NCBI RefSeq assembly: GCF_016859285.1
Contig: NC_053416.1
Location: 1,176,001-1,240,000, forward strand
Length of the DNA stretch: 64,000 bases
DNA from: Xiphias gladius
Taxonomy: Eukaryota > Chordata > Actinopteri > Istiophoriformes > Xiphiidae
Direction of reading: 5' to 3'
The notes under the pieces were generated by a model that worked only from the letters and a program-made list of their open reading frames with translations, was not told where the DNA came from and made no database searches. Below, in pieces: positions 872-42,174 of this stretch (position 1 is its first letter; each line of letters opens with the position of its first letter). Made by a program: the position numbers and the translations under genes.

Positions 872-1423
872 GCAATCTGGTGAATCATCTTCATCATGGC
901 GTCCAACATCGGCCTGGTGGTCCTGATCGCCGTGGAGAGGAGCCTCCACCAGCCCATGTATCTGCTCTTCTGCAACATGAGTATCAACGAGGTTTTTGGG
1001 GCCACCGTCATCATTCCTCGCTTGCTGAGCGATGTTTTTACTGTAGTCACAGACCGGAACATCCATTTACATAGACTGTGTTGTTCAGGCCTTCTGTGCT
1101 CACTTTCATGCAGGCACTTCTCATGCGGTGCTCACGATCATGGCTTTCGATCGCTACGTGGCCATCTGCAACCCCCTTGCGATACGGTTGTCAGTTGGAG
1201 CCTAGGCGGCGGCCTTTGTCTCTTTCGCGGTCCTCCTGGGCCTCACCGTCCGTCTGATGCGCTGCAGGCTAAACGCCGTGGTCCTGCTGGGTTCCTCCCT
1301 CGGCAGCATCACGCTCACCCCCATGATCATGCACCGTCACCCTGAGTGGGCGGACAGCGGCAAAGTGGCGTCTGTCAAGTTTCATGTCGTCCCCCCGGGC
1401 TGCAGTGTAAGGAGCTCAGACAG
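872..1423 (+). pseudogene. Odorant receptor pseudogene (degenerate, + strand)
   Basis: This is a broken OR coding exon, the only OR sequence on the + strand. The frame from about 884 reads the end of TM1 through TM2 (SLHQPMYLLFCNMSINE at about 935-985), with an in-frame TGA just upstream of the readable part. Near 1068 the frame shifts, and another frame carries the end of TM3 with the OR signature [12 protein letters not shown] at about 1140-1175. A TAG follows near 1203. After it comes TM4-like sequence ending in RCR, joined directly to TM6-like sequence, so EL2 and TM5 appear deleted. It resembles the MENY subfamily of the - strand genes (SLHQPMYLLFCN is shared) but is clearly older and non-functional. 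The limits are approximate because both ends are eroded. Confidence 0.85.
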
Positions 1424-6100: not shown

Positions 6101-6568
6101 ACATCTGGAGAAAACAGCCCACGACAGAGATGGTTGCCGTGTCTGCCAGGAAGCTGGACAGCATGTTGGGGATGGTGGTGGTGGTGTAGACCATGTCCAC
6201 AAATGAGAGGTTGTATAGGAAGAAATACATGGGAGAGTTGAGTTTTGGATCAGTCAATGCCTGCAAGAGAAAGGACAGAGAATGACTACGACACTTACAA
6301 TTACGTCTCAGTCAGACTGAGGTAATATTGATAACACTAATACACTGTCATAAGTGATAGACGGCTTTGGGTTTTTTTACCACCAAGATAATCATGCTGT
6401 TTCCTCCGAGGGTGAGAATATAACCCAGCAGCAGGAAGACAAGAAGGATCATCTTTTTCTCGCCGAGGCTGGCGAGGCCCTGGATGACGAAGAAGTCGAC
6501 GCCATCAGGCTCCCAGGTGTCATTAACAGAGCCGGATCTGTGATTGGTTGACAAGGGCAGGTATGAAT
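3199..6568 (-). CDS. Intron-containing odorant receptor gene (eta-like), start exon missing
   Basis: Seven-transmembrane OR split over at least three exons on the - strand. Exon A is 6568-6381: TM1, with an NDT glycosylation site and GGN. Exon B is 6260-5598: TM2 to TM6, with LNSPMYFFLYNL, MAYDRYMAICNPLRY, YCGPNVVRHGWCD and KAFGTCTAHL. Exon C is 3363-3199: TM7, with LTPFLNPMIYSLRSKEL, ending in TAG. Splice sites read by eye are all GT/AG: donors at 6380 and 5597, acceptors just before 6260 and 3363. The joins are phase 0 and restore continuous OR sequence (LGKFSPE|VRIIVSV). Intron A-B is 120 bp and intron B-C about 2.2 kb. Exon A has an acceptor (ttctccag) before 6568 and no in-frame ATG ahead of TM1, so a short upstream exon presumably supplies the start. 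Intron-bearing ORs are known in teleosts. Assignment to the eta group is from memory. No stop or frameshift was seen. Confidence 0.85.
3520..5135. repeat. Cluster of degenerate teleost interspersed repeats inside the OR intron
   Basis: Most of the 2.2-kb intron of the split OR gene is repeat-like. The part at 3650-3890 matches a common fish repeat that mentions 'cttggcggaggt' near its end. The parts at about 3520-3600, 4090-4240 and 4480-5110 hold several tandem, diverged copies of another one. Its copies share 'gatgatggc(a/g)c', 'gatca(c/g)caaag', 'aattcatcc' and 'cacaatccat' at spacings of roughly 150-170 bp. Related copies occur near 10.0-10.27, 44.33-44.57 and 45.68-45.84 kb. I cannot name the family with certainty. 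Confidence 0.55.
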
Positions 6569-11287: not shown

Positions 11288-12232
11288 TTAAAATGATGTT
11301 TTAACTTTTCTGAGCTGGAATATATTTGACAAACACTTGTGAATTTCTTGGGACTGCAGCCCGTAGATGACGGGGTTGAGGCTGCCAGGAATAACGTTAA
11401 AGAGAATGGCTGAAATCTTCCTGTACTCTGCGTACTCAGGGAAGCGATGGAGGGTGATGAGGACCATCCCACTGGCGAGCATGATCAGATACAGGCACAG
11501 GTGAGTGCTGCAGGTCTTCAGGGCTTTACTGTTCAGAGACTTGTTCCTACTGGTCAGACAGACTACTGTAATCTTAGTATAGGTGAGAACGATGCTGCCA
11601 ATAGAGGAGGTGAGTAGAACCACAGTGAAAGCGAGGCCATAGATGTTATTGATGAACACATTCTCACAGGAGAGCTTAAACAGCGAGGCGTTGTCACAGT
11701 AAGGGTTGGTGATCAGAGTCCTGCATCGGTTCAGGCGTATGGTCAGACCGAGCAGAATCCCGACCAAAACAAAGGCCACTCCCCAGGCAGCAACTGTCAG
11801 CTTGATCACCATTTTGTTGGTCATGATGGCAGCGTAGCGCAGGGGGCTGCAGATGGCCACATATCTGTCAAAGGCCATAATCATCAGGACTGTGTGTGCA
11901 TTGGTGCCAAGCATATGTAAAGTAAAAGCTTGCATTACACACTCATAGTAGTGGATGTGGCGCTCAGAGGGAGGCACCAGGATGTCGGCGAGCAACCGGG
12001 GAACCAGGAGCGAGTTTCCCATGACATCATTGATCGGCAGGTTACAGAAGAGCAGGTACATCGGCTGGTGCAGGCTCCTCTCCGTCCATATCAAGACCAA
12101 AATGCCCACATTGGCAATTAAGATGAAAACATAGGCCAAGAGCAAGAATAAGAAGACAGGGTATGTGTTAGTCTTGGTGACCCTTAACCCCTCAAGCTGA
12201 AGAGTGAGGCTGTTGTATGTATAGTTTTCCAT
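11288..12232 (-). CDS. Odorant receptor, MENY subfamily (OR-1)
   Basis: Intact single-exon OR of 314 residues, a seven-transmembrane G-protein-coupled receptor expected in olfactory neuron cilia. Starting at MENYTYNSLTLQLEG there is an N-glycosylation site NYT at residues 3-5, the TM1 asparagine (IANVG), LHQPMYLLFCNLPIND (about 55-69), the TM3 cysteine near 98, [15 protein letters not shown] (119-133), EL2 cysteines near 170, 179 and 189, KALKTCSTHL (236-245), and NPVIYG in TM7. A second ATG lies five codons upstream (MCAAQ), but all paralogues begin at MENY, so I chose the inner one. The segment before it ends in ctcag, a possible splice acceptor with a weak pyrimidine tract. Nucleotides 11501-11896 are identical to 17476-17871 in the next gene, while the flanks differ. 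It is probably a delta-group (class I-like) receptor, and its ligand is unknown. Confidence 0.93.
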   Translation of the reverse strand: MENYTYNSLTLQLEGLRVTKTNTYPVFLFLLLAYVFILIANVGILVLIWTERSLHQPMYLLFCNLPINDVMGNSLLVPRLLADILVPPSERHIHYYECVMQAFTLHMLGTNAHTVLMIMAFDRYVAICSPLRYAAIMTNKMVIKLTVAAWGVAFVLVGILLGLTIRLNRCRTLITNPYCDNASLFKLSCENVFINNIYGLAFTVVLLTSSIGSIVLTYTKITVVCLTSRNKSLNSKALKTCSTHLCLYLIMLASGMVLITLHRFPEYAEYRKISAILFNVIPGSLNPVIYGLQSQEIHKCLSNIFQLRKVKTSF

Positions 12233-13855
12233 CTGAGCCGCACACAATTAAAACAAGAGAGAGAGGAAGTGAAAAAATCACGCATGAAATGCAAATTTAA
12301 AAGTCTACAACACAAGAATAGATACAGTAGAAAATAGTGACACCACAATTGGAAAAAAAAGCCATTATTTGGAAAGAATCAATAAGTAAAAGTGAACTTG
12401 TCTTAGTAGTAAAGTGCACTTGGAGAATGATTCCTTAAAGAAGAAATGGTTAATTATATACAATGCACTGAGATCGGTAATGCTGAAGGGAAAAGTTACC
12501 ATTGAGACTTAAGTTGCAAAACACTTGAGTTCTGTACTGTTACAGTCACTTAACTTCTCTTCCATTGCAGCCATTACATTTAGCTGCACTAGGATCCATC
12601 TGTGTCAGCTGGCTTCAGTGGAATACCACTGAATTAATAGAGTATATTAGGTATGAACAGTATATGCATGTATTGCTAAAATTTGATTTTCATTCGAAGG
12701 ATAAAGCTAGTCGGAGATTTTTTTGATTTCCCATCTTGTGATTCGAATGACTAAATTAGCTGAGAGAACACCAAGACATTTCAGACTGAGATTCTAATAA
12801 GAACTCCTCAAAATGAATTTTATGTCATTTAAACATAAAACTTGGGTTAATGTTTGAAAATAATACTTTCCCATGGAAACAATGTTATTTTTAATACCCT
12901 TCCCTGTTGTAACAGTCTATTTTCTAATTACACTCTTCAGTTGACTGGCATGAAGAACTCAGCTGAGGTAAATGTTAGATCAGTAAAGCATTAATGAATA
13001 CCTTCCCGTCCAGCAGCGCAGTTTTGGCTCTTCTCTATCAGCCCTCCTCTAAACAGTCTCCTCATGTAAGTCTGTTTTATGAGCATTATTTCCTCTGGGA
13101 AAACATTGAACATTACGTAATAAAACATTATGTGTTGTTCACGGAGTTCATGTAAACTGTCAGCAGGCTTGTTAGGTGGATGTTCATTAAAAACAACGTT
13201 TTTGCCAACTAGTAATCCTGATATTGGCGTAACCTGGTTATTTGGCCACTGTGTGTTAAAGAGCTTAATCTCACACATAGCCCTTTCAATATTTGACGTA
13301 CGCCTACTTAAATTTTAGCGGATCCTTGGCACTTTGATGTAATTTCCATTACTTCATTTCGACTCTTTCTTCAGCTCTTACGGATAACAGTATGGCCAAC
13401 TCTCTTGGTGACGTCTTGTGTAGTGGTTGTCATGTTCAAACAATTTTCATCTTACTACGAGTGACATAGTAAACCCCCAAGATAATGACATGAAACAATA
13501 TGCTTTGAAAAATATTTAAAGTCACAATGATCTTCACGCTGCATATCAGTTATTTAAGACCTAATTGACCTCTGCATTTAATGAATGTTTTCCTTTTGTT
13601 AACATTCCTAAAATATCTATGACTAGTGATACTAACTGAGGTTTACTAAAGGTCTCCAAAAATCAGCCATCAAAAGAAAGAAAACTATATATAAAAAGAT
13701 ATTGGATTTGTCCATCTATGAGACACAGAAACAAATAAAAATTGAATAAAAATTGCAAAGAAAAAATACATCACAAACGGGTTTAATGAAGCCTCTAATA
13801 ACTTCAGAAAAACATGGAAAGACATTAACCAGTTCTTAAATAAGACATCCCCAAT
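12233..13855. other. Gene-free stretch upstream of OR-1
   Basis: No coding sequence recognised. I looked for the promoter and first-exon block found upstream of the other MENY genes and did not see it here. Confidence 0.45.
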
Positions 13856-13859
13856 TGTG

Positions 13860-14535
13860 TCTTTAAAATTTGATTATGAATGAATGATTATAAACAAAGT
13901 ATGAATGAACTTGTTTATGAATATAAAACATATGAAATTTCTCGTGCTTTTAATGGGGTTTTTTTGTCAATATATTTGGAAAAGGTTTGTCCCTCCCTTC
14001 AAAGTTTTGAGCCTGCTACAGTGCGTGAAGAAACTGATGCTAAATCTAAAATGAGGAAATCAGCAGCAGTTCATGATGATGTTGGGCTTACATTAGTTAC
14101 CAAATGCAATTCTTCAATCGTTAAACCTCTTATTTACATTTTTACCAAATCAATTTCAACTGAAATTGTAATTACTGATCTCAAAATTGCAAAGGTAGTC
14201 TCTCTCTTTAAATCTGGAGAAAATTAGTACTAGGCGTAAGCATCTTCAAGAGTAGAGCATTTACATGAATATCAGATGTAAAATGACTACAGAAATGACT
14301 GTTATTCACCTGGTTGACAAAATACATACCGCTTGAGTTATCACATTATGGCTTCAATGGGCTGCTTTAGGGCTCTCAAATTTTATCATTAATCAGAAAC
14401 AATTTGTACATTTAAATGGACGGATTTCTGGTATGGCGCAAGGTACTTGTGTAATCCCACAGGGCTCCATTCTAGGACCTTTTTTGTTCCTAGTCCACAT
14501 TATTGACTTGGCGGCTTGTTCCTTTTACATCAAAT
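13860..14535 (+). mobile_element. Degenerate LINE (non-LTR) reverse transcriptase relic
   Basis: Two separate frames carry reverse-transcriptase-like sequence. The one at 13880-14227 ends in LKIAKVVSLFKSGEN, the usual run-up to the palm motifs in jockey/L2/CR1-type LINEs. The one at 14433-14530 has PQGSILGPFLFL followed by a degraded 'INDL' position. Between them the frame is broken by stops and shifts, and the catalytic aspartate block is not visible. It is a dead, truncated copy. I cannot assign the clade beyond the L2/CR1/Rex1-like style. Confidence 0.7.
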
Positions 14536-14569
14536 TTTTTCCTAACTTAGTTCTGAGGCCAATTATGAA

Positions 14570-15110
14570 TTATGGGGCATTTCCACCGCAGGAACTTTCC
14601 CCCGGTCTAAGAATCTTTGGATGAACTCAGGAACTAAACTTGTACTTCAATTGGAGGAACCAGGGACCAACTTCATTTTCCCGTACAGCAGTTCTAGGTG
14701 CTAAAAAAGTCCCTCTTTCAGGGGTGGTACTACCTGATGGTTCAGCAACTTTGAAGGCAGAGTTTGCAGGGCTGACTGTTCAAATACAGACAATGCAGCT
14801 GCTTCAGCATGTGTACTGCTTCTGCCATAAAACAAGCTGGCACTGTAGCATCAATATTAGGACAATGATCAGACATTTCTCTTTTCAACGTTAAAAACAG
14901 AGTTATGCTTTGATGTCGGCCTTCCAACTTGTTTTAGCAAAGAGCGCGAATGAACTGAAAGCATGAGCACGCCAGAGTGAATGAACGATACAATAATACA
15001 GACCACAACAGGATAACTGTGTTTTTGTTCCCTAGCTTAGTTCCTGTGATTAGTTTCTCCGGTTCCATAGATCCTGGTACTTCCCGGTCAAGAAGGGTTT
15101 TCAGATAACA
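14570..15110. repeat. Possible non-autonomous DNA element
   Basis: The sequence from 'tatggggcatttccaccgca' to 'ggtacttcccggtcaagaag' has the look of a short fish DNA element. It has repeated 'aggaac' and 'ccagggacc' patches at both ends. No clear terminal inverted repeat or target duplication could be confirmed. Confidence 0.3.
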
Positions 15111-15725
15111 CTTCTAAATGGTTTAAATTGAAAAAAAAAAATCTCTTTAAAACAAATTTAATAAATCTCGTCTAATTTTTAAAAGTGTATTTAAAGATTG
15201 TATTTAATGTCGAAAAGTTATGTAAATTTCTCAGATTTCCTGAGATTTTGTACCGGATTTGCCTACCCAGAGCCTCAGTCTGTTTTACAGGATGCTGTAA
15301 TCAACTGTGTCTAAGAGGGCTGGACGAGGTCCAGAAGAACAAGGACTGAGCACATCCCGTCATCAGCGGCCATTTAAAGGACATTAGTTACCCTGAGATA
15401 TCAGGGTATTATTTGCATCTGCCGAGATTTAGAACAACTCTCAGCTGTGATGCTCACACGATATTCTTCTCCCACAAATTTTGCTTTAACCTTTTTTGAT
15501 GAGCTAAACTACTTCAATATTGTAACTGTGGACCTCGTATCTTTAGTGGTTCTATGCAGTTGACAGTAATGTTATTTTATTGTTGGCATTTTTTTTTCAG
15601 TTAACTTGGTATCATTGTGTGAATTACATACACACACACACACACACTATTGTGCAAAACAAAATGTCAGTTTACTGATAAACGGCACAGGTGCAGAGGA
15701 TCCAAACATGAAGTATCTTAAATTA
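15111..15725. other. Gene-free stretch with short (CA)n
   Basis: No gene seen. A short (CA)n tract lies at about 15629-15648. Confidence 0.5.
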
Positions 15726-15729
15726 TAAA

Positions 15730-16060
15730 AATCAGACTTGCAGACGATTGGTATACAAGCAGGCAGGTGGGCAGGTTAAGGCAAAAGCTAACAAATGCAG
15801 GTAGCGAGTTCACAGGAACATAAGCTGGTCGCAGATGCACTGGAACATACTGTAAACAGAGAAACTGACAGAGAACTGGTGACAAAGGCAGGTATAAATA
15901 CAGGCTTGGGTGATGAGGGAACTGGGTTCAGGTGTGCGAATGGGGAGGGAAGCTCTGGTGATTGCAAATGTGGAACAGGGGAGCATGTGGAATTGTAGAC
16001 AGGAAGAAAGTCCGGGGACATCGGGGGGATGGATGGAGAATGTCAGATCTGGGGAGATGA
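15730..16060 (-). mobile_element. Probable LTR-retrotransposon fragment (reverse orientation)
   Basis: The G/A-rich + strand includes 'aggtataaatacaggc', 'ggtgatgagggaactggg' and 'gacaggaagaaagtccgggg'. This resembles the reversed promoter and leader region of teleost gypsy-type LTRs. No gag or pol sequence is attached. The assignment rests on general resemblance. Confidence 0.35.
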
Positions 16061-16134
16061 AAGGGAGAACATGGCTTTGGAGAAGTGAGCAGGGGGACAG
16101 AGGGAGCTTTCAGGAGAATAGTTAGCCCTGTGAT

Positions 16135-16228
16135 AGACTGGCAACCTGTCCAGTGTGTACCCTGCTAGAGTGAGCATCCAGCCCCCCATGAACCTGCAGG
16201 ACACAAACAGATAGAAAATGGATGGACG
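16135..16228 (+). repeat. Teleost SINE/LINE 3'-tail-like repeat
   Basis: Contains 'gatagactggcaacctgtcc', 'gtgtaccctgc', 'tccagccccc' and 'gaaaatggatggacgg'. This is a very widespread fish retroposon tail. An oppositely oriented fragment occurs at about 46.94-47.01 kb. Confidence 0.65.
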
Positions 16229-17262
16229 GACTATGCCAAAGAGAATTTCTAGATAGACAACCTCTACAGCACAGCTACAGACTGCAAAGCTCTGAAAATA
16301 ATCAATGGCAAAACACATCCCGTCCTGAGTATGAGTTGCTCCCCTCAAGATACCCATGGCAAAGGGAAAGATCTACAAGGACTCGTTTATCCCAAATGCA
16401 TCTGATGTAGTCAACAAACTACAGGAAACTTAGGGTCCACCTCACTCAGGGATGTGTGAGATCTCTGTTGTTAATGTTATGTGATGTCACTTGTGGACAT
16501 GTTTATGTTTTTTACTTTTCTGGGTGAGACCAAAGACAATTTCCTGCCATGGCTGGAAAATGAAGTTTATTCTATACCCTTCTAAATGACATATAATGTA
16601 AGATAAAAACACAAAACACAATTAACAGTGACAAACCGCAGAATGTTATTGAAATTTTAAATTTAATTTCAGTTAACTTTCCTTCCAAAATAAGTGTTTT
16701 AAATCTTGTTGAGCCTGTGACACACAGAGAACCAAAAATGGTCTCCAGACCACACCATTACAGAAACTAGGCTATAATCAACTCAGCAGCATGTGGCCTT
16801 CAATTTAGTATGACAACTGAGCAATACAAAACGACAGCAGCAGGAGAAAGCAGAACTGAGTAAAGCTTTGAAAAAACATTCCAAAGTATAATGTATGAGA
16901 TAAACATCACACACATGTGGATATTACGCCTAACATGTGAGACAAATAAAGAACAAATAAACTATTTGGACACCAAGAAAACACGCCAGTTAATTTGACA
17001 GCACTAATTTCTCTTTCAAATGAACTTCTGATCTGATTTTTTTTCTGAAATGTGGATTAAAATGTAAACATTCAGCTTCAGTGAGTGAACTTCAAAACCA
17101 ATCCAGTTGCCATGATTCTCTAATCTCACCAAAAACAATGAATATAAATGAACATTATGATGTGAAATACAATATGGCAGTTTAGTTTGCATTTGCTGAT
17201 TTTTCATTTTTTTGCTACATGTGTTGTCTCCATGTTTACATACTAACTTTAAAATTCTCAAC
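16229..17262. other. Gene-free 3' flank of the 17.3-kb OR gene
   Basis: No gene seen. Short frames such as 17016-17339 (-) overlap the OR 3' end and are not credible genes. Confidence 0.5.
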
Positions 17263-18207
17263 TCAGAGTAAGGGCATAACTGGTTTGGATCGGAACAACT
17301 TTGACAAGGATTTGCAGATTTCTGCAGACTGCACGCCATAAATAATTGGGTTGAGGCTACCAGGGATGATATGAAACAGAATGGCAGAAAGTTTTCTGTA
17401 GTCTGAGTACTGAGGGAAACGATGCAGGATGATGATGAGTGTTCCGCATAAGAACATGATCAGATACAAAACCAGGTGAGTGCTGCAGGTCTTCAGGGCT
17501 TTACTGTTCAGAGACTTGTTCCTACTGGTCAGACAGACTACTGTAATCTTAGTATAGGTGAGAACGATGCTGCCAATAGAGGAGGTGAGTAGAACCACAG
17601 TGAAAGCGAGGCCATAGATGTTATTGATGAACACATTCTCACAGGAGAGCTTAAACAGCGAGGCGTTGTCACAGTAAGGGTTGGTGATCAGAGTCCTGCA
17701 TCGGTTCAGGCGTATGGTCAGACCGAGCAGAATCCCGACCAAAACAAAGGCCACTCCCCAGGCAGCAACTGTCAGCTTGATCACCATTTTGTTGGTCATG
17801 ATGGCAGCGTAGCGCAGGGGGCTGCAGATGGCCACATATCTGTCAAAGGCCATAATCATCAGGACTGTGTGAGTGGTGGTACCGAACATGTGTGTGGTGA
17901 AAGCTTGGACCACACACTCATAATAACTGATGAGGCGTTCAGAGGGAGGACGCAACATGTCATTGAGCAAACGGGGCACCATGATAGAGTTTCCAACAAC
18001 GTCATTGACTGGCAGGTTGCAAAAAAGCAGGTACATAGGCTGGTGAAGGTTTTTGTCAATGAAAACCAGGAATGCAATACCTGCATTCACAAACATTAAA
18101 AAAATGTAGGAGAAAAGGAAGAGGAGAAAGACCAGGTAGACAGAGTCCTTTGAGACATTCAACCCCTCCACCTGGAGTGTTAAACTGTTGTAGGTGTAGT
18201 TTTCCAT
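17263..18207 (-). CDS. Odorant receptor, MENY subfamily (OR-2)
   Basis: Intact OR of 314 residues starting MENYTYNSLTLQVEG. Landmarks: NYT glycosylation site 3-5, TM1 asparagine 41, LHQPMYLLFCNLPVND 54-69, C98 at the top of TM3, [15 protein letters not shown] 119-133, EL2 cysteines 170, 179 and 189, KALKTCSTHL 236-245, NPIIYG 286-291. The start is supported by a splice acceptor (ttctttcag) four bases before the ATG. The open frame continues upstream, but that is intron sequence. A likely non-coding first exon and promoter lie at about 18422-18552. Residues about 112-245 are encoded by DNA identical to OR-1, whereas TM1-TM3 and TM6-TM7 differ, so the gene is a mosaic. Its signalling partner is presumably an olfactory G protein (family knowledge), and its ligand is unknown. 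Confidence 0.94.
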   Translation of the reverse strand: MENYTYNSLTLQVEGLNVSKDSVYLVFLLFLFSYIFLMFVNAGIAFLVFIDKNLHQPMYLLFCNLPVNDVVGNSIMVPRLLNDMLRPPSERLISYYECVVQAFTTHMFGTTTHTVLMIMAFDRYVAICSPLRYAAIMTNKMVIKLTVAAWGVAFVLVGILLGLTIRLNRCRTLITNPYCDNASLFKLSCENVFINNIYGLAFTVVLLTSSIGSIVLTYTKITVVCLTSRNKSLNSKALKTCSTHLVLYLIMFLCGTLIIILHRFPQYSDYRKLSAILFHIIPGSLNPIIYGVQSAEICKSLSKLFRSKPVMPLL

Positions 18208-25359: not shown

Positions 25360-26304
25360 TTACAATGATGGCGAAACCTTCTTGGACTCAAACAACTTTG
25401 AAAGGAATTTCCGTATCTCTTTAGACTGCACGCCATAAATAACTGGGTTGAGGCTTCCGGGGATGATATGAAACAGAATTGTACAGAGTACTCTGTAGTC
25501 TGAGTACTGGGGAAATCGATGTAGAAAAACGATAGACATTCCACTGAACATCATGATCAGATACAAAACCAGGTGAGTGCTGCAGGTCTTCAGGGCTTTA
25601 CTGTTCAGAGACTTGTTCCTACTGGTCAGACAGACTACTGTAATCTTAGCATAGGTGAGAACGATGCTGCCAATAGAGGAGGTGAGTAGAACCACAGTGA
25701 AAGTGAGGCCATAGACGTTATTGATGAACACACTCTCACAGGAGAGCTTAAACAGCGAGGCGTTGTCACAGAAGGGGTTGGTGATCAGAGTCCTGCATCG
25801 GTTCAGGCGTATGGTCAGACCGAGCAGAATCCCGACCAAAACAAAGGCCACTCCCCAGGCAGAAACTGTCAGCTTGATCACCATTTTGTTGGTCATGATG
25901 GCAGCGTAGCGCAGGGGGCTGCAGATGGCCACATATCTGTCAAAGGCCATAATCATCAGGACTGTGTGGGAAGTGGTACCGAACATGTGTGCGGTGAAAG
26001 CTTGGACCACACACTCATAATAACCGATGAGGCGTTCAGAGGGAGGACGCAACATGTCAATGAGCAAACGGGGAACCGTGATTGAATTTCCAACAACGTC
26101 ATTGACTGGCAGGTTGCAAAAAAGCAGGTACATAGGCTGATGAAGGTTTTTGTCAATGAACACCAGAAACACAATGCCAACATTTGTGACCATTATAAAC
26201 ATATAGGAGAAAAAGAGGAAGAGAAACATAGGGTATGTTGAATCCTTTGAGACAATCAACCCCTCCAGCTGAAGAGTGAAGCTGTTGAAGGTGTAGTTTT
26301 CCAT
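25360..26304 (-). CDS. Odorant receptor, MENY subfamily (OR-3)
   Basis: Intact OR of 314 residues starting MENYTFNSFTLQLEG, with all family landmarks ([53 protein letters not shown]). The ATG sits four bases after a splice acceptor (ttctttcag). The gene is chimeric. From the ATG to the end of TM3 its DNA is identical to OR-4 (30.0 kb), and the identity ends just upstream of the ATG. The upstream flank and the TM6-TM7 end match OR-5 (35.8 kb) instead. One odd change is TVSAWG where paralogues have TVAAWG. It is the proximal member of the duplicated pair OR-3+OR-4 / OR-5+OR-6. Confidence 0.94.
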   Translation of the reverse strand: MENYTFNSFTLQLEGLIVSKDSTYPMFLFLFFSYMFIMVTNVGIVFLVFIDKNLHQPMYLLFCNLPVNDVVGNSITVPRLLIDMLRPPSERLIGYYECVVQAFTAHMFGTTSHTVLMIMAFDRYVAICSPLRYAAIMTNKMVIKLTVSAWGVAFVLVGILLGLTIRLNRCRTLITNPFCDNASLFKLSCESVFINNVYGLTFTVVLLTSSIGSIVLTYAKITVVCLTSRNKSLNSKALKTCSTHLVLYLIMMFSGMSIVFLHRFPQYSDYRVLCTILFHIIPGSLNPVIYGVQSKEIRKFLSKLFESKKVSPSL

Positions 26305-29300
26305 CAACCTGAAAGAACAAAACAGTTCTCTTAAGGTCACAGGTAATGCAATGTAGGTAGTACGTGGGTGTCTGACAAACCTGAAACTTTAAGTTTGTAA
26401 GTATGGAATATAAATACACACACACGCACAGTGTATTTGTCATTTCTTCAAATCATCATAAAAAGAATGAAAGTGGATACAAGTGAATAAGCGATACATT
26501 ACATTACTTTACAGTTTGACTGTGATCAGACTTTATACCTACTACGAGTGTCTCCGACTTCAAACTCTTGTCTTCTCTTTCTTGTGTCCCTGCCCATTGT
26601 TGATAGTATCTACCAGCTCCGATCAAGATCTCCTCCGTTTTATAGACATGATTTTATCTCTTGGGGAATCAGCTGTGTCAGATTATATGTGATGCAACAT
26701 TAAGAAATGATTATGCTGCAACGTGCGACTTTTAGCTCTGAGACAAGCGAGAGTAAGCTCGCCCTGTTCACCCTTCCTACCACCAAAACTTTTCAGTCAC
26801 CTTAAAGGTTAAACTTCAGGTGTCTTACAATTGCAAAACCATGACAGGCGATCAGTCATTCACCGGGTATTGAAGATTTAGTCCAATTTGGACGATGCTG
26901 TTCTCACCCATATACTGTACTAAATTTTTATTATTATATTAGCACAAGTAAGAAATGAACGGTGACAATTATAATATTTCAATCAATAAACAAGACAATT
27001 ATTAATGCTAACACATATAATAAGCAGCCTTACTATCAACCTGCGTGCCAAAGCCAGGAGTAGCATCCGTGGCCTGTGCCATCTAACTCTGGTACAGGAA
27101 AGGATCTGGCGTCCTGAAGCACCCCAAGCAGTAGCTTTACTACTCCATCACTGCATGCACTACTAATAGTAAGTTTCACTTTGTAACAATTCCCAAGTGA
27201 TTTTTACCTCGTTGTCAAGCTGAAATGCTTCCGTCTCAGTGAGCGCCTTTTGTCAGAGTCGGACAGATTGAGAGAGGCGTTGCAATTTTGTCGAAGTAGC
27301 GTCTACAAAAACTCAAATGAGACACGGTACAACAGATTTGGTCATTCATTCTCTGGACAGACCTAATCTTTATCAGAACAATCAAACCTTTCTGGCTGGA
27401 GCTTTTCACGGGGTAGGGCTCACATACTGCCCACAGTGGATCTCATTTTAATGGTATCGAGAGCCTTTGCCATACTGGGCAGATGTCCTTGTCCCGAGGT
27501 TTTAGGGAAGTGTGAAAAGACAACTCCCAAGTCAGCGGCACATTGGCACTGTTAACACAGTTTTGCCTCGCATAAAGGATCTGACAGCCGACTGGGGCCT
27601 TTGTGTTTTACAGCACATTTCCTGGATGGTTCAGTCTCGGCACTCTCGTCAACCCCGTTTCAACCAGCAGCAGGCAGCTGTTGTCACTGTCACTGGGATT
27701 TCTCTTACTTCCCAAACTGTAGCATTCCTGTGATTTTTCCTCAGTTTTAGCAGAATAGACAGAGAAAACATATATGGATTGAAAATAAAGTGTCTAAAAC
27801 CCACCCAGCAAACAGAGAAGCCAGACAGTGGTTTTTCCCCTTTAGGCCCCTCTGTTTGTACACAGGCAGGCCCAACTGTGGTCAGGCCTGTGGTGTAGGT
27901 TATCGCCCAGACAAGGCAACTTGAGTTTTTGGGGGCAGATTTGGATTTGCCCACAGAAAACCCATACACAGTTCACATTGTTTGTCTCACGTGTCTGTTT
28001 GTCCACTGAACTGTTTCCCTGCAGTGTGGGGAAATTCTTGTTGGTTCTTTTCTGGAGGTTCCAAGGTCTAAAGTCTTTCCCAAGGTCGAAACATTCACAC
28101 TGGCTCGTTTTTAATTCTGTTTACCGACCATGTGTTCTTTCTGCTTCTTTACACTGTTGTCGTTTTCGCTGTATGTAAAAGGAATGCATGACAAAGTTGT
28201 TGCGTAAAAATGGCGTTTCAGCAACTGCATTTATCATTATGATTTATTACTTTAACTTTATAGAGACTAAGCCCTTATACACAGCACGTTCACAGCCACA
28301 GTGTCATATTACAGGGTCAGCAGCACTGTCTGTTATCATTGTCCAGTTTGCAGTTTAATATACAGTCCACAGTCTTACATATGATTCAAGACTCACTCCG
28401 GCTGGGGAGTGTCACTGTTGTTCTTGCTCACTTGGCACTACTGAAGCCGTCCTCTAAACACTGAACAAAAACAGCGCATGCATTCAACACGGCCTCTAAT
28501 ATTAGTGCAAATGTTTTCTTCAGTAAACATCTGGAGGAAGATTCAGACATTTCACAGTCTGCGTTAATCTTGCACTCATTTCTATAAACAGCGTTTAAAC
28601 AGAACACGATAGCCGTCCAACAGCAACATTAATATTGCATCCATATCCACAGCCTTTGATATGTGACATTAGCTTATCTATCTTGAAGTGTTACGGCACA
28701 CTTGTTTGGATGTTGTTTTCTTCCCCCCGGCCGGTTTTCTGCTGCTTGTTATTTCTGCCTGTATTTCAGGCAGCGCTGACCGACTGATGCATGCAGGTAT
28801 TAGAACAAGAAAGCACTTTGTTAGAAACAGTAACGAGTTCATTTGCTCATTCGTCTCTTTCGGTTTATTAGATATGTTTTTATTCTTTAAAGAAAAATGA
28901 TGGTTTATCACAACCTAGGTTTTGTCTTTGTAGGTTCAGCCGTTGGTTCTATCGGCTATGAGAATGTATGAACCTAAGTAATATCTTAGAGCTCGGGACC
29001 TGGTGTCTGATCAGACAAACTGGCTATTTTACCGAAGTAGCTCTCTATTTGGAGGTAAAACCAAAAGTGATCATCCCCATAATGTCAGTAATAGTCCCTC
29101 GACACAATTTGTAATAAACCCTAGTTTTCTGTTTACGGCAATCGTAATACATTTCGCCAGAGTTTTTCATTTTAAAAGTTACTCTTTATTCAGTTGTCAT
29201 CTTGTTTATGATTTGAAGAAAGGGTCAACAAAAAATGTCATCATAGTTTTCACTTAGGAAATGAACACAGTCTCTGACTGTACTGACTTCAGGCAGCCAG

Positions 29301-30655
29301 TAGCAGTGGAAGAGGGGAATGCCACAGACATAAAACACATTCACAAATGAAAACTCAAAAAACATGGTACTTAGAGTTGTCTGTCAACCCTCCCATCAAC
29401 ATCTCATCACACTGAAATAATCTGAACGAACTTCTTTAAATAGCTGCTTTACGTGCATACATGTCAAGAATCAGAATATGGCCCATCACAACTTTTACTT
29501 GCACAATAATGTTCACTCCACAATATTCAATACTGGATCTACTGACGGGCAAGAACACTTAAACCGAGCCAAAATAAATCAAAGCAGGAATCAGGAAAAG
29601 TGAACTTGCGTTTTCAGCAGTTGGAGCATTAGTACCACCAGGTCAGTGTAATCTTAACACAGAGTTAAGTAAATACCACTTCACAAATAAGAAGAAATCT
29701 TCACAGTGGCCTTTTGCATGGCTCTATCACAGTGGTGTTGACTCAGTTCTGATGCCACCTTTGTCTTAAAAAAAGAGAGGTATTTGGAATTTCTCTGAAC
29801 CTGTGTTTACACAGATCCCAAATATAAATGGACTCTTTACGTGAAGTAGTGGACAGTTTTTACACTTATAAACGGGACTCTAGTTTTGAACAACAAAACT
29901 ATTCACATATACAGAGAAAACATGTCCTGTGTTTTTATTTGACTTGAGATCGTGCTGTATTCTTGGACTCTGTATTTACTCTATATATGACTTGTCTATT
30001 TATGTTTCCACAAATGTCAGTGAATGTCACAAAAAACAAATATTTATTTTTTACTTGAGAGCAAACATTTTTTGCACTGAAACATTTCAAATAGGAATTT
30101 CTGTATCTCTTTAGACTGCACACCATAAATAATGGGGTTGAGGCTTCCAGGGACAAGGACAAACAGAATGGCAGAAAGTTTCCTATAGTCTGGGTACTGA
30201 GGGAAGCGATGCAAAGTTATGATAATTACTCCACTTAATATCATGATCAGATACAAAACCAGGTGAGTGCTGCAGGTCTTCAGGGCTTTACTGTTCAGAG
30301 ACTTGTTCCTACTGGTCAGACAGACTACTGTAATCTTAGTATAGGTGAGAACGATGCTGCCAATAGAGGAGGTGAGTAGAACCACAGTGAAAGCAAGGCC
30401 ATAGATGTTATTGATGAACACACTCTCACAGGAGAGCTTAAACAGCGAGGCGTTGTCACAGAAGGGGTTGGTGATCAGAGTCCTGCATCGGTTCAGGCGT
30501 ATGGTCAGACCGAGCAGAATCCCGACCAAAACAAAGGCCACTCCCCAGGCAGCAACTGTCAGCTTGATCACCATTTTGTTGGTCATGATGGCAGCGTAGC
30601 GCAGGGGGCTGCAGATGGCCACATATCTGTCAAAGGCCATAATCATCAGGACTGT
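26285..30655. repeat. Segmental duplication, proximal copy
   Basis: About 4.37 kb, nearly identical to 36682-41050 at an offset of 10395-10398 bp. Differences I can see are single bases and small indels. Examples: 'ccctgttcaccc' here versus 'ccctggtcaccc' in the other copy, 'tactccatcac' versus 'tactccgtcac', and 'ttttaccgaagtagc' versus 'ttttgcagtagc'. It spans the OR-3 promoter and first exon, the intergenic DNA and the 3' two-thirds of OR-4. No extra gene was found in the intergenic part. A degenerate fish repeat lies near 27.78-27.97 kb ('cccacccagcaaacagag', 'cccacagaaaaccc'). Confidence 0.9.
26308..26700 (-). promoter_or_regulatory. OR-3 promoter and non-coding first exon (candidate)
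   Basis: On the - strand: an EBF/Olf1-like TTCCCCAAGAGA (26657-26668), TATA-like TCTATAAAAC (26637-26646), a leader with GACACAAGAAAGAGAAGAC, and a donor GTAG|GTATAA closing the exon at 26539. The intron runs 26538-26309. The whole block is repeated almost unchanged upstream of OR-5. Confidence 0.55.
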
Positions 30656-30994
30656 GTGGGAAGTGGTACCGAACATGTGTGCGGTGAAAGCTTGGACCAC
30701 ACACTCATAATAACCGATGAGGCGTTCAGAGGGAGGACGCAACATGTCAATGAGCAAACGGGGAACCGTGATTGAATTTCCAACAACGTCATTGACTGGC
30801 AGGTTGCAAAAAAGCAGGTACATAGGCTGATGAAGGTTTTTGTCAATGAACACCAGAAACACAATGCCAACATTTGTGACCATTATAAACATATAGGAGA
30901 AAAAGAGGAAGAGAAACATAGGGTATGTTGAATCCTTTGAGACAATCAACCCCTCCAGCTGAAGAGTGAAGCTGTTGAAGGTGTAGTTTTCCAT
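30044..30994 (-). CDS. Odorant receptor, MENY subfamily (OR-4)
   Basis: Intact OR of 316 residues starting MENYTFNSFTLQLEG. It has the usual motifs ([48 protein letters not shown]) and a distinctive C-terminus ending KKCLLSSKK. That C-terminal part, from TM6 on, is identical in protein to OR-6 at 40.4 kb. The TM1-TM3 part is identical in DNA to OR-3. The core mixes a NPFCDN...CESVFINN type (as in OR-3 and OR-6) with NIYGLAF (as in OR-1 and OR-2), suggesting a conversion join near residue 196. A splice acceptor-like stretch precedes the ATG (tttttcag). Confidence 0.94.
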   Translation of the reverse strand: MENYTFNSFTLQLEGLIVSKDSTYPMFLFLFFSYMFIMVTNVGIVFLVFIDKNLHQPMYLLFCNLPVNDVVGNSITVPRLLIDMLRPPSERLIGYYECVVQAFTAHMFGTTSHTVLMIMAFDRYVAICSPLRYAAIMTNKMVIKLTVAAWGVAFVLVGILLGLTIRLNRCRTLITNPFCDNASLFKLSCESVFINNIYGLAFTVVLLTSSIGSIVLTYTKITVVCLTSRNKSLNSKALKTCSTHLVLYLIMILSGVIIITLHRFPQYPDYRKLSAILFVLVPGSLNPIIYGVQSKEIQKFLFEMFQCKKCLLSSKK

Positions 30995-31404
30995 CAACCT
31001 GAAAAAACAAAACAATGATGTCACGAAATCCACGTATAAGAGATCAGTTTCTGAAATAGTGATGATTCCCCAACCAAATTAAAATAATCAGCTTTCCTGG
31101 GATCCTAGGGAAACATATTGTACAGTACATAGTTTCTGTGAAATAAATTATATCCTATATAATACTTCTACGTGTCTTTTGGTATGTTCTGCTGTGAAAG
31201 CTGAATAACCTCTGAGAAAAGTATTAGTCTAAGAACCAGAACCAGTCTAAGCTGGTTCAACGAATCATTAAATTCGTAACAGCTGGGGCTGAAGAGCTGA
31301 CTGCTCTCCACGTACTGTATATTTGACTTTGATCAAACATTCTGAGAAAAATGTATGAAAAATAAGAAAACAGAAACACTTTCTTGTAGATCAGTAATAC
31401 TTAC

Positions 31405-35756: not shown

Positions 35757-36701
35757 TTATAATGATGGCAAAACCTTCTTGGACTCAAATAACTTTGAAA
35801 GGAATTTCCGTATCTCTTTAGACTGCACGCCATAAATAACTGGGTTGAGGCTTCCAGGGATGATATGGAACAGAATAGCTACAACTTTTCTGCTGTCTGA
35901 GTGTTGAGGAAATCGATGTAGAACAATGATAGACATTCCACTGATCATCATGATCAGATACAAAACCAGGTGAGTGCTGCAGGTCTTCAGGGCTTTACTG
36001 TTCAGAGACTTGTTCCTACTGGTCAGACAGACTACTGTAATCTTAGTATAGGTGAGAACGATGCTGCCAATAGAGGAGGTGAGTAGAACCACAGTGAAAG
36101 TGAGGCCATAGACGTTATTGATGAACACACTCTCACAGGAGAGCTTAAACAGCGAGGCGTTGTCACAGTAAGGGCTTGTGATCAGAGTCCTGCATCGGTT
36201 CAGGCGTATGGTCAGACCGAGCAGAATCCCGACCAAAACAAAGGCCACTCCCCAGGCAGCAACTGTCAGCTTGATCACCATTTTGTTGGTCATGATGGCA
36301 GCGTAGCGCAGGGGGCTGCAGATGGCCACATATCTGTCAAAGGCCATAATCATGAGGACTGTGTGGGAAGTGGTGCCGAACATGTGTGAGGTGAAAGCTT
36401 GGACCACACATTCATAATAACTGATGAGGCGTTCAGAGGGAGGACGCAACATGTCAATGAGCAAACGGGGCACCATGATAGAGTTTCCAATGATGTCACT
36501 CAGTACCAGGTTGCAGAAAAGCAGGTACATAGGCTGGTGAAGGTTTTTGTCAATGAAAACCATGAACGCAATGCCGACGTTTGTGACCATTATGAACAAG
36601 TATGAGAAAAAGAGATAAAGAAACAGAGGGTAGACGGAGTCCTTTGAGACATTCAACCCCTCCAGCTGGAGTGTTAAGCTGTTGTAGGTGTAGTTTTCCA
36701 T
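35757..36701 (-). CDS. Odorant receptor, MENY subfamily (OR-5)
   Basis: Intact OR of 314 residues starting MENYTYNSLTLQLEG. Motifs: FIDKNLHQPMYLLFCNLVLSD (TM2 differs from paralogues, which have LPVND), C98, [21 protein letters not shown] in EL2 where others have NPYCDN or NPFCDN, KALKTCSTHL and NPVIYGVQSKEI. The C-terminal part matches OR-3 closely (KFLSKLFESKKV). The splice acceptor ttctttcag lies four bases before the ATG. It is the distal partner of OR-3 in the 10.4-kb duplication, yet its TM1-TM3 is more like OR-2 (LEGLNVSKDSVY), so OR-3 rather than OR-5 probably lost the ancestral 5' end. Confidence 0.94.
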   Translation of the reverse strand: MENYTYNSLTLQLEGLNVSKDSVYPLFLYLFFSYLFIMVTNVGIAFMVFIDKNLHQPMYLLFCNLVLSDIIGNSIMVPRLLIDMLRPPSERLISYYECVVQAFTSHMFGTTSHTVLMIMAFDRYVAICSPLRYAAIMTNKMVIKLTVAAWGVAFVLVGILLGLTIRLNRCRTLITSPYCDNASLFKLSCESVFINNVYGLTFTVVLLTSSIGSIVLTYTKITVVCLTSRNKSLNSKALKTCSTHLVLYLIMMISGMSIIVLHRFPQHSDSRKVVAILFHIIPGSLNPVIYGVQSKEIRKFLSKLFESKKVLPSL

Positions 36702-39700
36702 CAACCTGAAAGAACAAAACAGTTCTCTTAAGGTCACAGGTAATGCAATGTAGGTAGTACGTGGGTGTCTGACAAACCTGAAACTTTAAGTTTGTAAGTA
36801 TGGAATATAAATACACACACACGCACAGTGTATTTGTCATTTCTTCAAATCATCATAAAAAGAATGAAAGTGGATACAAGTGAATAAGCGATACATTACA
36901 TTACTTTACAGTTTGACTGTGATCAGACTTTATACCTACTACGAGTGTCTCCGACTTCAAACTCTTGTCTTCTCTTTCTTGTGTCCCTGCCCATTGTTGA
37001 TAGTATCTACCAGCTCCGATCAAGATCTCCTCCGTTTTATAGACATGATTTTATCTCTTGGGGAATCAGCTGTGTCAGATTATATGTGATGCAACATTAA
37101 GAAATGATTATGCTGCAACGTGCGACTTTTAGCTCTGAGACAAGCGAGAGTAAGCTCGCCCTGGTCACCCTTCCTACCACCAAAACTTTTCAGTCACCTT
37201 AAAGGTTAAACTTCAGGTGTCTTACAATTGCAAAACCATGACAGGCGATCAGTCATTCACCGGGTATTGAAGATTTAGTCCAATTTGGACGATGCTGTTC
37301 TCACCCATATACTGTACTAAATTTTTATTATTATATTAGCACAAGTAAGAAATGAACGGTGACAATTATAATATTTCAATCAATAAACAAGACAATTATT
37401 AATGCTAACACATATAATAAGCAGCCTTACTATCAACCTGCGTGCCAAAGCCAGGAGTAGCATCCGTGGCCTGTGCCATCTAACTCTGGTACAGGAAAGG
37501 ATCTGGCGTCCTGAAGCACCCCAAGCAGTAGCTTTACTACTCCGTCACTGCATGCACTACTAATAGTAAGTTTCACTTTGTAACAATTCCCAAGTGATTT
37601 TTACCTCGTTGTCAAGCTGAAATGCTTCCGTCTCAGTGAGCGCCTTTTGTCAGAGTCGGACAGATTGAGAGAGGCGTTGCAATTTTGTCGAAGTAGCGTC
37701 TACAAAAACTCAAATGAGACACGGTACAACAGATTTGGTCATTCATTCTCTGGACAGACCTAATCTTTATCAGAACAATCAAACCTTTCTGGCTGGAGCT
37801 TTTCACGGGGTAGGGCTCACATACTGCCCACAGTGGATCTCATTTTAATGGTATCGAGAGCCTTTGCCATACTGGGCAGATGTCCTTGTCCCGAGGTTTT
37901 AGGGAAGTGTGAAAAGACAACTCCCAAGTCAGCGGCACATTGGCACTGTTAACACAGTTTTGCCTCGCATAAAGGATCTGACAGCCGACTGGGGCCTTTG
38001 TGTTTTACAGCACATTTCCTGGATGGTTCAGTCTCGGCACTCTCGTCAACCCCGTTTCAACCAGCAGCAGGCAGCTGTTGTCACTGTCACTGGGATTTCT
38101 CTTACTTCCCAAACTGTAGCATTCCTGTGATTTTTCCTCAGTTTTAGCAGAATAGACAGAGAAAACATATATGGATTGAAAATAAAGTGTCTAAAACCCA
38201 CCCAGCAAACAGAGAAGCCAGACAGTGGTTTTCCCCTTTAGGCCCCTCTGTTTGTACACAGGCAGGCCCAACTGTGGTCAGGCCTGTGGTGTAGGTTATC
38301 GCCCAGACAAGGCAACTTGAGTTTTTGGGGGCAGATTTGGATTTGCCCACAGAAAACCCATACACAGTTCACATTGTTTGTCTCACGTGTCTGTTTGTCC
38401 ACTGAACTGTTTCCCCCTGCAGTGTGGGGAAATTCTTGTTGGTTCTTTTCTGGAGGTTCCAAGGTCTAAAGTCTTTCCCAAGGTCGAAACATTCACACTG
38501 GCTCGTTTTTAATTCTGTTTACCGACCATGTGTTCTTTCTGCTTCTTTACACTGTTGTCGTTTTCGCTGTATGTAAAAGGAATGCATGACAAAGTTGTTG
38601 CGTAAAAATGGCGTTTCAGCAACTGCATTTATCATTATGATTTATTACTTTAACTTTATAGAGACTAAGCCCTTATACACAGCACGTTCACAGCCACAGT
38701 GTCATATTACAGGGTCAGCAGCACTGTCTGTTATCATTGTCCAGTTTGCAGTTTAATATACAGTCCACAGTCTTACATATGATTCAAGACTCACTCCGGC
38801 TGGGGAGTGTCACTGTTGTTCTTGCTCACTTGGCACTACTGAAGCCGTCCTCTAAACATTGAACAAAAACAGCGCATGCATTCAACACGGCCTCTAATAT
38901 TAGTGCAAATGTTTTCTTCAGTAAACATCTGGAGGAAGATTCAGACATTTCACAGTCTGCGTTAATCTTGCACTCATTTCTATAAACAGCGTTTAAACAG
39001 AACACGATAGCCGTCCAACAGCAACATTAATATTGCATCCATATCCACAGCCTTTGATATGTGACATTAGCTTATCTATCTTGAAGTGTTACGGCACACT
39101 TGTTTGGATGTTGTTTTCTTCCCCCCGGCCGGTTTTCTGCTGCTTGTTATTTCTGCCTGTATTTCAGGCAGCGCTGACCGACTGATGCATGCAGGTATTA
39201 GAACAAGAAAGCACTTTGTTAGAAACAGTAACGAGTTCATTTGCTCATTCGTCTCTTTCGGTTTATTAGATATGTTTTTATTCTTTAAAGAAAAATGATG
39301 GTTTATCACAACCTAGGTTTTGTCTTTGTAGGTTCAGCCGTTGGTTCTATCGGCTATGAGAATGTATGAACCTAAGTAATATCTTAGAGCTCGGGACCTG
39401 GTGTCTGATCAGACAAACTGGCTATTTTGCAGTAGCTCTCTATTTGGAGGTAAAACCAAAAGTGATCATCCCCATAATGTCAGTAATAGTCCCTCGACAC
39501 AATTTGTAATAAACCCTAGTTTTCTGTTTACGCAATCGTAATACATTTAAGCCAGAGTTTTTCATTTTAAAAGTTACTCTTTATTCAGTTGTCATCTTGT
39601 TTATGATTTGAAGAAAGGGTCAACAAAAAATGTCATCATAGTTTTCACTTAGGAAATGAACACAGTCTCTGACTGTACTGACTTCAGGCAGCCAGTAGCA

Positions 39701-41050
39701 GTGGAAGAGGGGAATGCCACAGACATAAAACACATTCACAAATGAAAACTCAAAAAACATGGTACTTAGAGTTGTCTGTCAACCCTCCCATCAACATCTC
39801 ATCACACTGAAATAATCTGAACGAACTTCTTTAAATAGCTGCTTTACGTGCATACATGTCAAGAATCAGAATATGGCCCATCACAACTTTTACTTGCACA
39901 ATAATGTTCACTCCACAATATTCAATACTGGATCTACTGACGGGCAAGAACACTTAAACCGAGCCAAAATAAATCAAAGCAGGAATCAGGAAAAGTGAAC
40001 TTGCGTTTTCAGCAGTTGGAGCATTAGTACCACCAGGTCAGTGTAATCTTAACACAGAGTTAAGTAAATACCACTTCACAAATAAGAAGAAATCTTCACA
40101 GTGGCCTTTTGCATGGCTCTATCACAGTGGTGTTGACTCAGTTCTGATGCCACCTTTGTCTTAAAAAAAGAGAGGTATTTGGAATTTCTCTGAACCTGTG
40201 TTTACACCGATCCCAAATATAAATGGACTCTTTACGTGAAGTAGTGGACAGTTTTTACACTTATAAACGGGACTCTAGTTTTGAACAACAAAACTATTCA
40301 AATATACAGAGAAAACATGTCCTGTGTTTTTATTTGACTTGAGATCGTGCTGTATTCTTGGACTCTGTATTTACTCTATATATGACTTGTCTATTTATGT
40401 TTCCACAAATGTCAGTGAATGTCACAAAAAACAAATATTTATTTTTTACTTGAGAGCAAACATTTTTTGCACTGAAACATTTCAAATAGGAATTTCTGTA
40501 TCTCTTTAGACTGCACACCATAAATAATGGGGTTGAGGCTTCCAGGGACAAGGACAAACAGAATGGCAGAAAGTTTCCTATAGTCTGGGTACTGAGGGAA
40601 GCGATGCAAAGTTATGATAATTACTCCACTTAATATCATGATCAGATACAAAACCAGGTGAGTGCTGCAGGTCTTCAGGGCTTTACTGTTCAGAGACTTG
40701 TTCCTACTGGTCAGACAGACTACTGTAATCTTAGTATAGGTGAGAACGATGCTGCCAACAGAGGAGGTGAGTAGAACCACAGTGAAAGTGAGGCCATAGA
40801 CGTTATTGATGAACACACTCTCACAGGAGAGCTTAAACAGCGAGGCGTTGTCACAGAAGGGGTTGGTGATCAGAGTCCTGCATCGGTTCAGGCGTATGGT
40901 CAGACCGAGCAGAATCCCGACCAAAACAAAGGCCACTCCCCAGGCAGCAACTGTCAGCTTGATCACCATTTTGTTGGTCATGATGGCAGCGTAGCGCAGG
41001 GGGCTGCAGATGGCCACATATCTGTCAAAAGCCATAATCATCAGGACTGT
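36682..41050. repeat. Segmental duplication, distal copy
   Basis: Partner of 26285-30655. Near-identity starts about 20 bp inside the OR-5 start and stops inside OR-6 near the codons for HTVLMIMAFDRY. Beyond those points the coding sequences diverge sharply. The order and orientation of the two OR genes are the same in both copies, so the arrangement is tandem. Confidence 0.9.
36705..37097 (-). promoter_or_regulatory. OR-5 promoter and non-coding first exon (candidate)
   Basis: A copy of the OR-3 upstream block at +10397: EBF-like site at about 37054-37065, TATA-like TCTATAAAAC at about 37034-37043, the same leader, and donor ending the exon at 36936. The sequence is essentially unchanged between the two copies. 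Confidence 0.55.
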
Positions 41051-41389
41051 GTGGGAAGTGGTACCGAACAACTGTGTGGTGAAAGCTTGGACCACACACT
41101 CATAATAACTGATGAGGCGTTCAGAGGGAGGACGCAACATGTCAATGAGCAAACGGGGCACAATATGAGTCCCTCCAATGATGTCACTGACTGCCAGGTT
41201 GCAAAAAAGCAGGTACATAGGCTGGTGAAGGTTTTTGTCAATGAAAATTAGAACCAAAATGCCTATGTTCATAACCATTACAACAGCGTAGGAAACAAAG
41301 AAAAAGAAAAAGACCGGGTACATGGAATTCCCGGGGACCTTAAACCCCTCCAGCTGGAGTATGAAACTGTTGTAGGTGTAGTTTTCCAT
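40439..41389 (-). CDS. Odorant receptor, MENY subfamily (OR-6)
   Basis: Intact OR of 316 residues starting MENYTYNSFILQLEG. It has the most divergent TM1-TM2 of the set (EGFKVPGNSMYP, FFFFFVSYAVVMVMNIG) and AVSDIIGGTHIVPRLL in TM2-EL1. From [15 protein letters not shown] onward it matches the paralogues, and from TM6 to KKCLLSSKK it is the same as OR-4. The open frame extends 50 codons further upstream. I place the start at MENY because a splice acceptor (ttgtgatttcag) lies four bases before it, as in the paralogues. Confidence 0.94.
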   Translation of the reverse strand: MENYTYNSFILQLEGFKVPGNSMYPVFFFFFVSYAVVMVMNIGILVLIFIDKNLHQPMYLLFCNLAVSDIIGGTHIVPRLLIDMLRPPSERLISYYECVVQAFTTQLFGTTSHTVLMIMAFDRYVAICSPLRYAAIMTNKMVIKLTVAAWGVAFVLVGILLGLTIRLNRCRTLITNPFCDNASLFKLSCESVFINNVYGLTFTVVLLTSSVGSIVLTYTKITVVCLTSRNKSLNSKALKTCSTHLVLYLIMILSGVIIITLHRFPQYPDYRKLSAILFVLVPGSLNPIIYGVQSKEIQKFLFEMFQCKKCLLSSKK

Positions 41390-41800: not shown

Positions 41801-42174
41801 TAAAGGAATCAGTGTGATGGCCATCCCAACTGTCATTACGCAGCCATGTTTAACTTTCAGAACGTCTGTTGTTGAAAGTGTTCACAGTCTACATTTATCC
41901 CTTTCACACATTTTAATGTATTTTCAACAAATTTTACTACCCATCATTGTATTTTATGGCTCACATGCATAGATAAACAGTACTAAGATATGAGAAGCTT
42001 TGCAAAACACATAAGGCTTACCCTGCCTGTATATATGCAGTCATCAAACTTACTGTACCTGGGCCTGTGCAGCTCCTTAAGGCAATACTTTCACTAACAA
42101 AAACTGCGAAGGGAAGCTTCAAGAGGTATTAATTATGTTTTGCTACTATGGGACAATAAACTATCAAGGCAAGC

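Follow-up and report, generated by a model that had tools for sequence, protein, structure and literature searches.

Regional gene conversion was reportedly described in zebrafish protocadherin clusters by Noonan in 2004. In the fugu protocadherin clusters, according to the consulted part of PMC1852091, regional gene conversion homogenises the 3' region of the variable exons, and GC3 is higher there. Two further systems are odorant receptors. In a primate odorant receptor cluster, conversion and recombination reportedly make mosaic tandem genes (Sharon 1999, as cited in the review PMC1995454, consulted in part), and for the avian gamma-c odorant receptors, whose paralogues group by species, concerted evolution or conversion has been proposed in the consulted parts of PMC2758906 and PMC6969042.

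In this study, we analysed a window of 64,000 nucleotides from Xiphias gladius (contig NC_053416.1), which contains an array of six odorant receptor genes, OR1 to OR6. As in the teleost protocadherins, at least as far as the consulted text describes them, the genes are tandem paralogues that have one near-identical segment, silent sites included, and a diverged remainder; OR2-OR6 also show a trend similar to the higher GC3 of the homogenised part. The protocadherin segment is, however, the 3' region of an exon, whereas that of the array lies in the interior of a seven-helix receptor, and in the array some pairs also have common N or C halves. The array resembles the primate cluster in having mosaic receptor genes in tandem, but an array-wide common core with separate ends is absent from the description of odorant receptor clusters in the consulted part of PMC1995454. 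With the avian receptors it shares a proposal of concerted evolution or conversion among paralogues; in contrast, the most variable positions of the shearwater set are reported to be in TM4 and TM5, which here lie inside the homogenised core (PMC2758906, PMC6969042, partial texts). Among the matches listed in a full-text literature search, as far as their text was available, none described odorant receptors with a pattern limited to the core. The array clearly exemplifies a process already known, not a new one.

All six genes lie in tandem in one shared orientation, on the minus strand, and all are intact: OR1 (11288..12232), OR2 (17263..18207), OR3 (25360..26304) and OR5 (35757..36701) have 314 codons each, and OR4 (30044..30994) and OR6 (40439..41389) have 316. 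Each has an uninterrupted frame containing the stretches [10 protein letters not shown] and KALKTCSTH, which we take to be motifs of the odorant receptor family. Close forms are named in the consulted part of PMC6969042. The Pfam profile PF13853 (7tm_4) matched every gene over nearly its full length, with E values from 1e-41 to 6e-47 (5.7e-47 for OR1, a single open frame starting with MENYT). When OR2, the single query used, was compared with solved structures, the 13 best matches were odorant receptors.

A sequence-only reading of this DNA had noticed that positions 11501-11896 and 17476-17871 match at an offset of 5975, and indeed there is no mismatch in the 396 bp and no indel. The exact run is slightly longer, 399 bp (OR1 core, 11498..11896, minus strand; OR2 core, 17473..17871, minus strand), and is bounded by mismatches at 11497 and 11897. 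It spans codons 113-245 in a numbering that begins at the common MENYT start (residues of about 112-245 had been given earlier); these codons run from late TM3 to the start of TM6, presumably about 3.40 to 6.41 in GPCR numbering. Divergence on both sides, also claimed in that reading, amounts to 31.5% in the N part (nt 0-336) and 29.6% in the C part (nt 735-924). Its claim that silent sites are identical holds as well: where OR1 and OR2 encode the same amino acid (Met and Trp excluded), none of the 128 core codons differs, versus 50 of the 108 flank codons (Fisher p = 3e-21), and at fourfold sites the counts are 0/70 and 25/45 (p = 2e-13). The silent identity of this pair therefore far exceeds the expectation based on the flanks. 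A GENECONV-like permutation of variable sites gave p = 0.0004 for OR1/OR2 using all sites and 0.16 when restricted to third positions; no pair of OR1 with OR3-OR6 reached significance. Note that this permutation is weak where all six copies are alike, because it drops invariant columns. The OR1/OR2 core is best explained by recent gene conversion.

An event restricted to two genes is ruled out, since all six cores are alike. Codons 113-245 show 0-8 differences per 399 bp in all 15 pairs: OR1 differs from OR3-OR6 at 4-7 sites, and the cores of OR3 (25570..25968), OR4 (30260..30658), OR5 (35967..36365) and OR6 (40655..41053), all on the minus strand, differ from the other five at 4-7, 4-8, 6-8 and 4-7 sites, respectively. 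The OR1/OR2 pair is thus the extreme of an array-wide pattern, and the first observation was correct but understated. Outside the core, the divergence is 12.5-31.8% in the N part for 14 of 15 pairs and 10.6-36.5% in the C part, again for 14 of 15, the exceptions being OR3/OR4 (0) and OR4/OR6 (0), respectively; OR1 differs from the other five by 0-1.8% in the core but by about 29-37% beyond it. The emptiest 399-nt window of the six-gene alignment has 13 variable columns, and the lowest value in 10,000 codon shuffles was 67. Thirteen of the 133 codons of the core are variable, eight changing an amino acid and five silent; OR3, OR4, OR5 and OR6 each have private changes, and one change is common to OR1 and OR2 only. 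The core contains TM4, the second extracellular loop, TM5 and intracellular loops 2 and 3. In general, it is somewhat better conserved than the flanks, as observed with two controls, a related pseudogene and a distant receptor.

Conversion had been proposed to be confined to the receptor core. This fits OR1 but not the array, where the core is common to six genes, OR3 and OR4 have a common N half, and OR4 and OR6 a common C half. The OR3 N half (25864..26314, minus strand) is identical over 451 bp, from nt -10 to 440 relative to the ATG, to that of OR4 (30554..31004, minus strand), with a permutation p of 0.0002, the minimum that 5,000 shuffles allow. OR4 is the probable donor and OR3 the likelier recipient, because the upstream DNA of OR3 and OR5 is alike and their N halves are not. 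The whole C half is identical between OR4 and OR6 and belongs to a block of about 4.07 kb. One copy (26289..30363) covers the first ~15 nt of OR3, the OR3-OR4 intergenic stretch and the OR4 C half, and the other (36686..40758) covers the first ~15 nt of OR5, the intergenic stretch and the OR6 C half; they are 99.6% identical over 4,078 columns, with 7 mismatches and 8 gap positions. Both larger common stretches, the N half and the block, end inside genes. In a plus-strand BLAST of seven intergenic and flanking stretches (E 1e-3), the only long match was that between the two block copies, three others being short (75-83%), and the three stretches adjoining OR1 and OR2 gave no match that would indicate common intergenic elements. 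Since the long match is limited to the block copies, most of the duplications appear to be old and the cores to be young.

The N part, core and C part also have conflicting trees by AU tests. The N-part alignment rejects the trees of the other segments at p <= 2.3e-5 and the C-part alignment at p <= 9.2e-8. On the core alignment, the N-part tree has p = 0.0013 and the C-part tree p = 0.027, the latter being rejected by AU only (KH 0.115, SH 0.273); bootstrap values are 53-78 in the core tree and just 41 and 52 for two splits of the N-part tree. Within the core, site pairs 530/532 and 588/600 show four-gamete conflict, with all four combinations present. GC3 is higher in core than in flank in OR2-OR6 (p 0.007-0.10; below 0.05 in OR3, OR4 and OR6, 0.08 in OR2 and 0.10 in OR5), and OR1 shows no rise (0.677 in the core, 0.674 in the flank).

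We consider it highly likely that the array consists of six old tandem duplicates that have undergone recurrent ectopic gene conversion and at least one larger exchange. A donor copy would repair a break in a neighbouring gene, and pairing would be limited to stretches in which the copies have stayed similar, so that the core would be continually renewed while most ends would have drifted too far for pairing. In the newest event, about 399 bp of OR1 may have been replaced by the OR2 core; this direction is the probable one from the sequences, because outside the core OR1 differs from each of the other five genes by 29-37%. In separate events, the OR4 N half may have been copied into OR3, and the block of about 4.07 kb exchanged between the OR6-OR5 and OR4-OR3 intervals. 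The outcome would be receptors with a common middle and mix-and-match ends. We infer the direction and mechanism of each exchange from a single assembly.

Instead of non-reciprocal conversion, unequal crossing over could have produced part of the mosaics, by joining the front of one gene to the rear of a second. The ~4.07 kb block, which has a partial gene on each side, is consistent with this origin, which we regard as possible though not probable and which is compatible with conversion elsewhere in the array. Crossing over alone fails for OR1/OR2, however: diverged DNA flanks the 399-bp tract on both sides, a configuration that requires either a conversion or two crossovers close together.

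It is rather unlikely that selection keeps the pattern by eliminating conversions that extend into the ends, since TM1-TM3 and TM6-TM7 would have to differ, with homogenisation of the core tolerated or favoured for G-protein coupling; this, too, is compatible with conversion as the process. The mean amino acid difference by segment is 0-6% inside the core and 18-33% outside, and the core stops just short of the TM3 and TM6 pocket residues. Against selection, the sharing between OR3/OR4 and OR4/OR6 did extend through N and C halves, respectively, and the 28 nt adjoining the core on the N side differ at 11-12 sites in the three OR1 pairs binned, a divergence that could by itself stop pairing. 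The earlier suggestion that the ends carry the receptor differences did not gain support as a selected arrangement: in flank bins (excluding those with both rates zero or dS saturated), pairwise dN is below dS, the sole exception being codons 51-98 of OR2/OR6 (dN 0.11, dS 0.08). Divergence alone could be what keeps conversion out of the ends. In core bins, dN exceeds dS in several pairs, but few changes underlie this. The idea of positive selection on the core was set aside, the variable codons, eight against five, being too few for a claim.

An assembly collapse, chimera or polishing error that put one core over the others is improbable. Although all of the sequence comes from one assembly, such an error would not account for the 13 variable core codons, the gene-private changes and the change found in OR1 and OR2 only, and the open frames and unique flanks are intact. 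The OR1/OR2 pair is the least protected, because exact identity is limited to it.

Constraint on the silent sites of the core (an RNA element or codon use) with no conversion is extremely improbable, since, although a related pseudogene has 73% DNA identity in the core versus 59-61% in the flanks (four of six genes, 146 core nt aligned) and a distant receptor 33% versus 16-26% amino acid identity (three of six genes), OR1 is far closer to the others in the core than outside, and the segment trees conflict. The core of the pseudogene is still 27% different, though a pseudogene is itself free of constraint.

Recurrent conversion among old duplicates has consequences for how such arrays are analysed: whole-gene trees and selection tests would mislead, because each part of a gene has its own history. 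A more speculative extension, to which we give little weight, is that the core serves as a recombination platform, in which conversion keeps the core alike, neighbours pair through it, and N (TM1-TM3) and C (TM6-TM7) modules recombine. OR4, which combines the N module found in OR3 with the C module found in OR6, matches this pattern; if it is true, receptor diversity would come from module shuffling, beyond point mutation alone. The array also provides natural receptor chimeras, with a near-constant core and swapped ends, that are useful for finding which helices set odour preference.

Six intact odorant-receptor genes, OR1 to OR6 (11288-12232, 17263-18207, 25360-26304, 30044-30994, 35757-36701 and 40439-41389), lie in tandem on the minus strand of the window, each a single open frame of 314-316 codons with a common MENYT start and a match to the olfactory receptor profile. 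A CAG resembling an acceptor stands directly 5' of the ATG in all six (as TTTCAG in five), a placement that would fit one coding exon preceded by an untranslated exon. Upstream of OR6, about 0.8 kb from its start, is a minisatellite (42174-42728; ~31 copies of an 18-bp unit, located within open frames on both strands), adjoined by a short OR-like fragment (42784-43002, minus strand; 33% identity over ~74 residues). Farther along are an open frame matching Pfam PF02932, the membrane region of neurotransmitter-gated ion channels (51525-52316, minus strand), and CA and TG dinucleotide repeats (60227-60316 and 63586-63647).

The sequence-only reading reported about 396 identical bp in OR1 and OR2 between clearly diverged flanks; the exact run is 399 bp (11498-11896 and 17473-17871), with mismatches directly at both ends, and the flanks differ by 31.5% (N part, nt 0-336) and 29.6% (C part, nt 735-924). 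As that reading also held, the signal is carried by silent sites: among codons for the same amino acid (excluding Met and Trp), 0 of 128 differ in the core versus 50 of 108 in the flanks, and among fourfold sites 0 of 70 versus 25 of 45. By the rule of three, zero differences in 399 bp put the 95% upper bound on core divergence at ~0.75%. The likelier direction of transfer would be from OR2 to OR1, because outside the core OR1 differs by 29-37% from every other gene (0-1.8% inside), whereas OR2 differs from OR3-OR6 by only 13-17% (N) and 22-23% (C).

Conversion had been read as confined to the OR1/OR2 core. The tract itself stands, but the core (codons 113-245) is shared array-wide, with 0-8 differences in 399 sites in all 15 pairs, and other segments are identical too. 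The N parts differ by 12.5-31.8% in 14 pairs (OR3/OR4, 0) and the C parts by 10.6-36.5% in 14 (OR4/OR6, 0). Only 13 of the 249 variable columns of the six-gene alignment fall within the 399 core columns, a value that none of 10,000 shuffles reached; 5 of 120 silent core codons vary, the lowest of 10,000 shuffles being 17. Binned synonymous divergence, the check proposed with the earlier reading, agrees (dS 0-0.05 in every pair for two bins within the core, codons 131-231), and amino-acid differences average 0-6% by segment inside the core and 18-33% outside.

The genes are also mosaics. OR3 and OR4 are identical over 451 bp (nt -10 to 440), and OR4 and OR6 from nt 631 to past the stop. OR3 and OR5 have ~3.7 kb of upstream DNA in common at 99.6%; nevertheless, their N parts differ by 12.5%. 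The two copies of a block that extends from the opening codons of OR3/OR5 and takes in the C half of OR4/OR6 (26289-30363 and 36686-40758) align at 99.6% identity across 4,078 columns. In the simplest order, exchange of this block would have preceded the overwriting of OR3's N half by that of OR4. The trees of the three parts conflict: the N part groups OR3+OR4 (95% bootstrap; other splits 41 and 52), the core OR1+OR2 (78%), and the C part OR4+OR6 (100%) and OR3+OR5 (97%). Where the core disagrees with the C part, the support comes from the AU test alone. All four combinations occur at core site pairs 530/532 and 588/600, which suggests repeated exchange within the core, recurrent mutation being an alternative source.

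General conservation of the core falls far short of accounting for 98-100% identity. It appears modest, because a related pseudogene (887-1394, plus strand, opposite to OR1-OR6, with a frame change and a stop) that served as a control shows 73% identity in 146 aligned core nt versus 59-61% in the N part (four of the six genes compared), and a distant odorant receptor (5508-6266, minus strand, with an open frame of 252 codons and 28-29% identity to OR1 and OR2 across the matched part) shows amino-acid identities of 33% in the core versus 16-26% in the flanks (three genes compared). The earlier reading further had the ends left to carry receptor differences; their sparing by selection is possible, but pairwise dN and dS lend it no support. 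The best reading is recurrent ectopic conversion between near neighbours, the ends perhaps being spared since they are too diverged for pairing. Gene conversion as first proposed is retained, as a recurrent, array-wide process. Against it, the third-position permutation test for OR1/OR2 was not significant (p 0.16), and neither was any permutation test pairing OR1 with OR3-OR6; a GC3 rise in the core is absent in OR1, and of the remaining five genes three show it at the 0.05 level.

We take the core to span ~3.40 to 6.41 in GPCR numbering, read against the alignments, and thus presumably to hold the G-protein-facing loops, TM4, the second extracellular loop and TM5. The most variable positions of shearwater receptors lie in TM4 and TM5 (PMC6969042), and of two zebrafish TM sites that show signs of positive selection, one is in TM4 (PMC1325023); the homogenised TM4-TM5 of the swordfish array is notable because of these reports. 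Other papers attribute regional homogenisation of fugu protocadherin clusters to conversion (PMC1852091), describe mosaic odorant receptors produced by conversion and recombination (PMC1995454, a review) and report possible conversion in channel catfish OlfC receptors (PMC6588630); stickleback copy-number genes overall show no positive link to conversion (PMC4256280), and the term 'gene conversion' is absent from PMC2605262. The OR1-OR6 array is an unusually clear case of an already known process.
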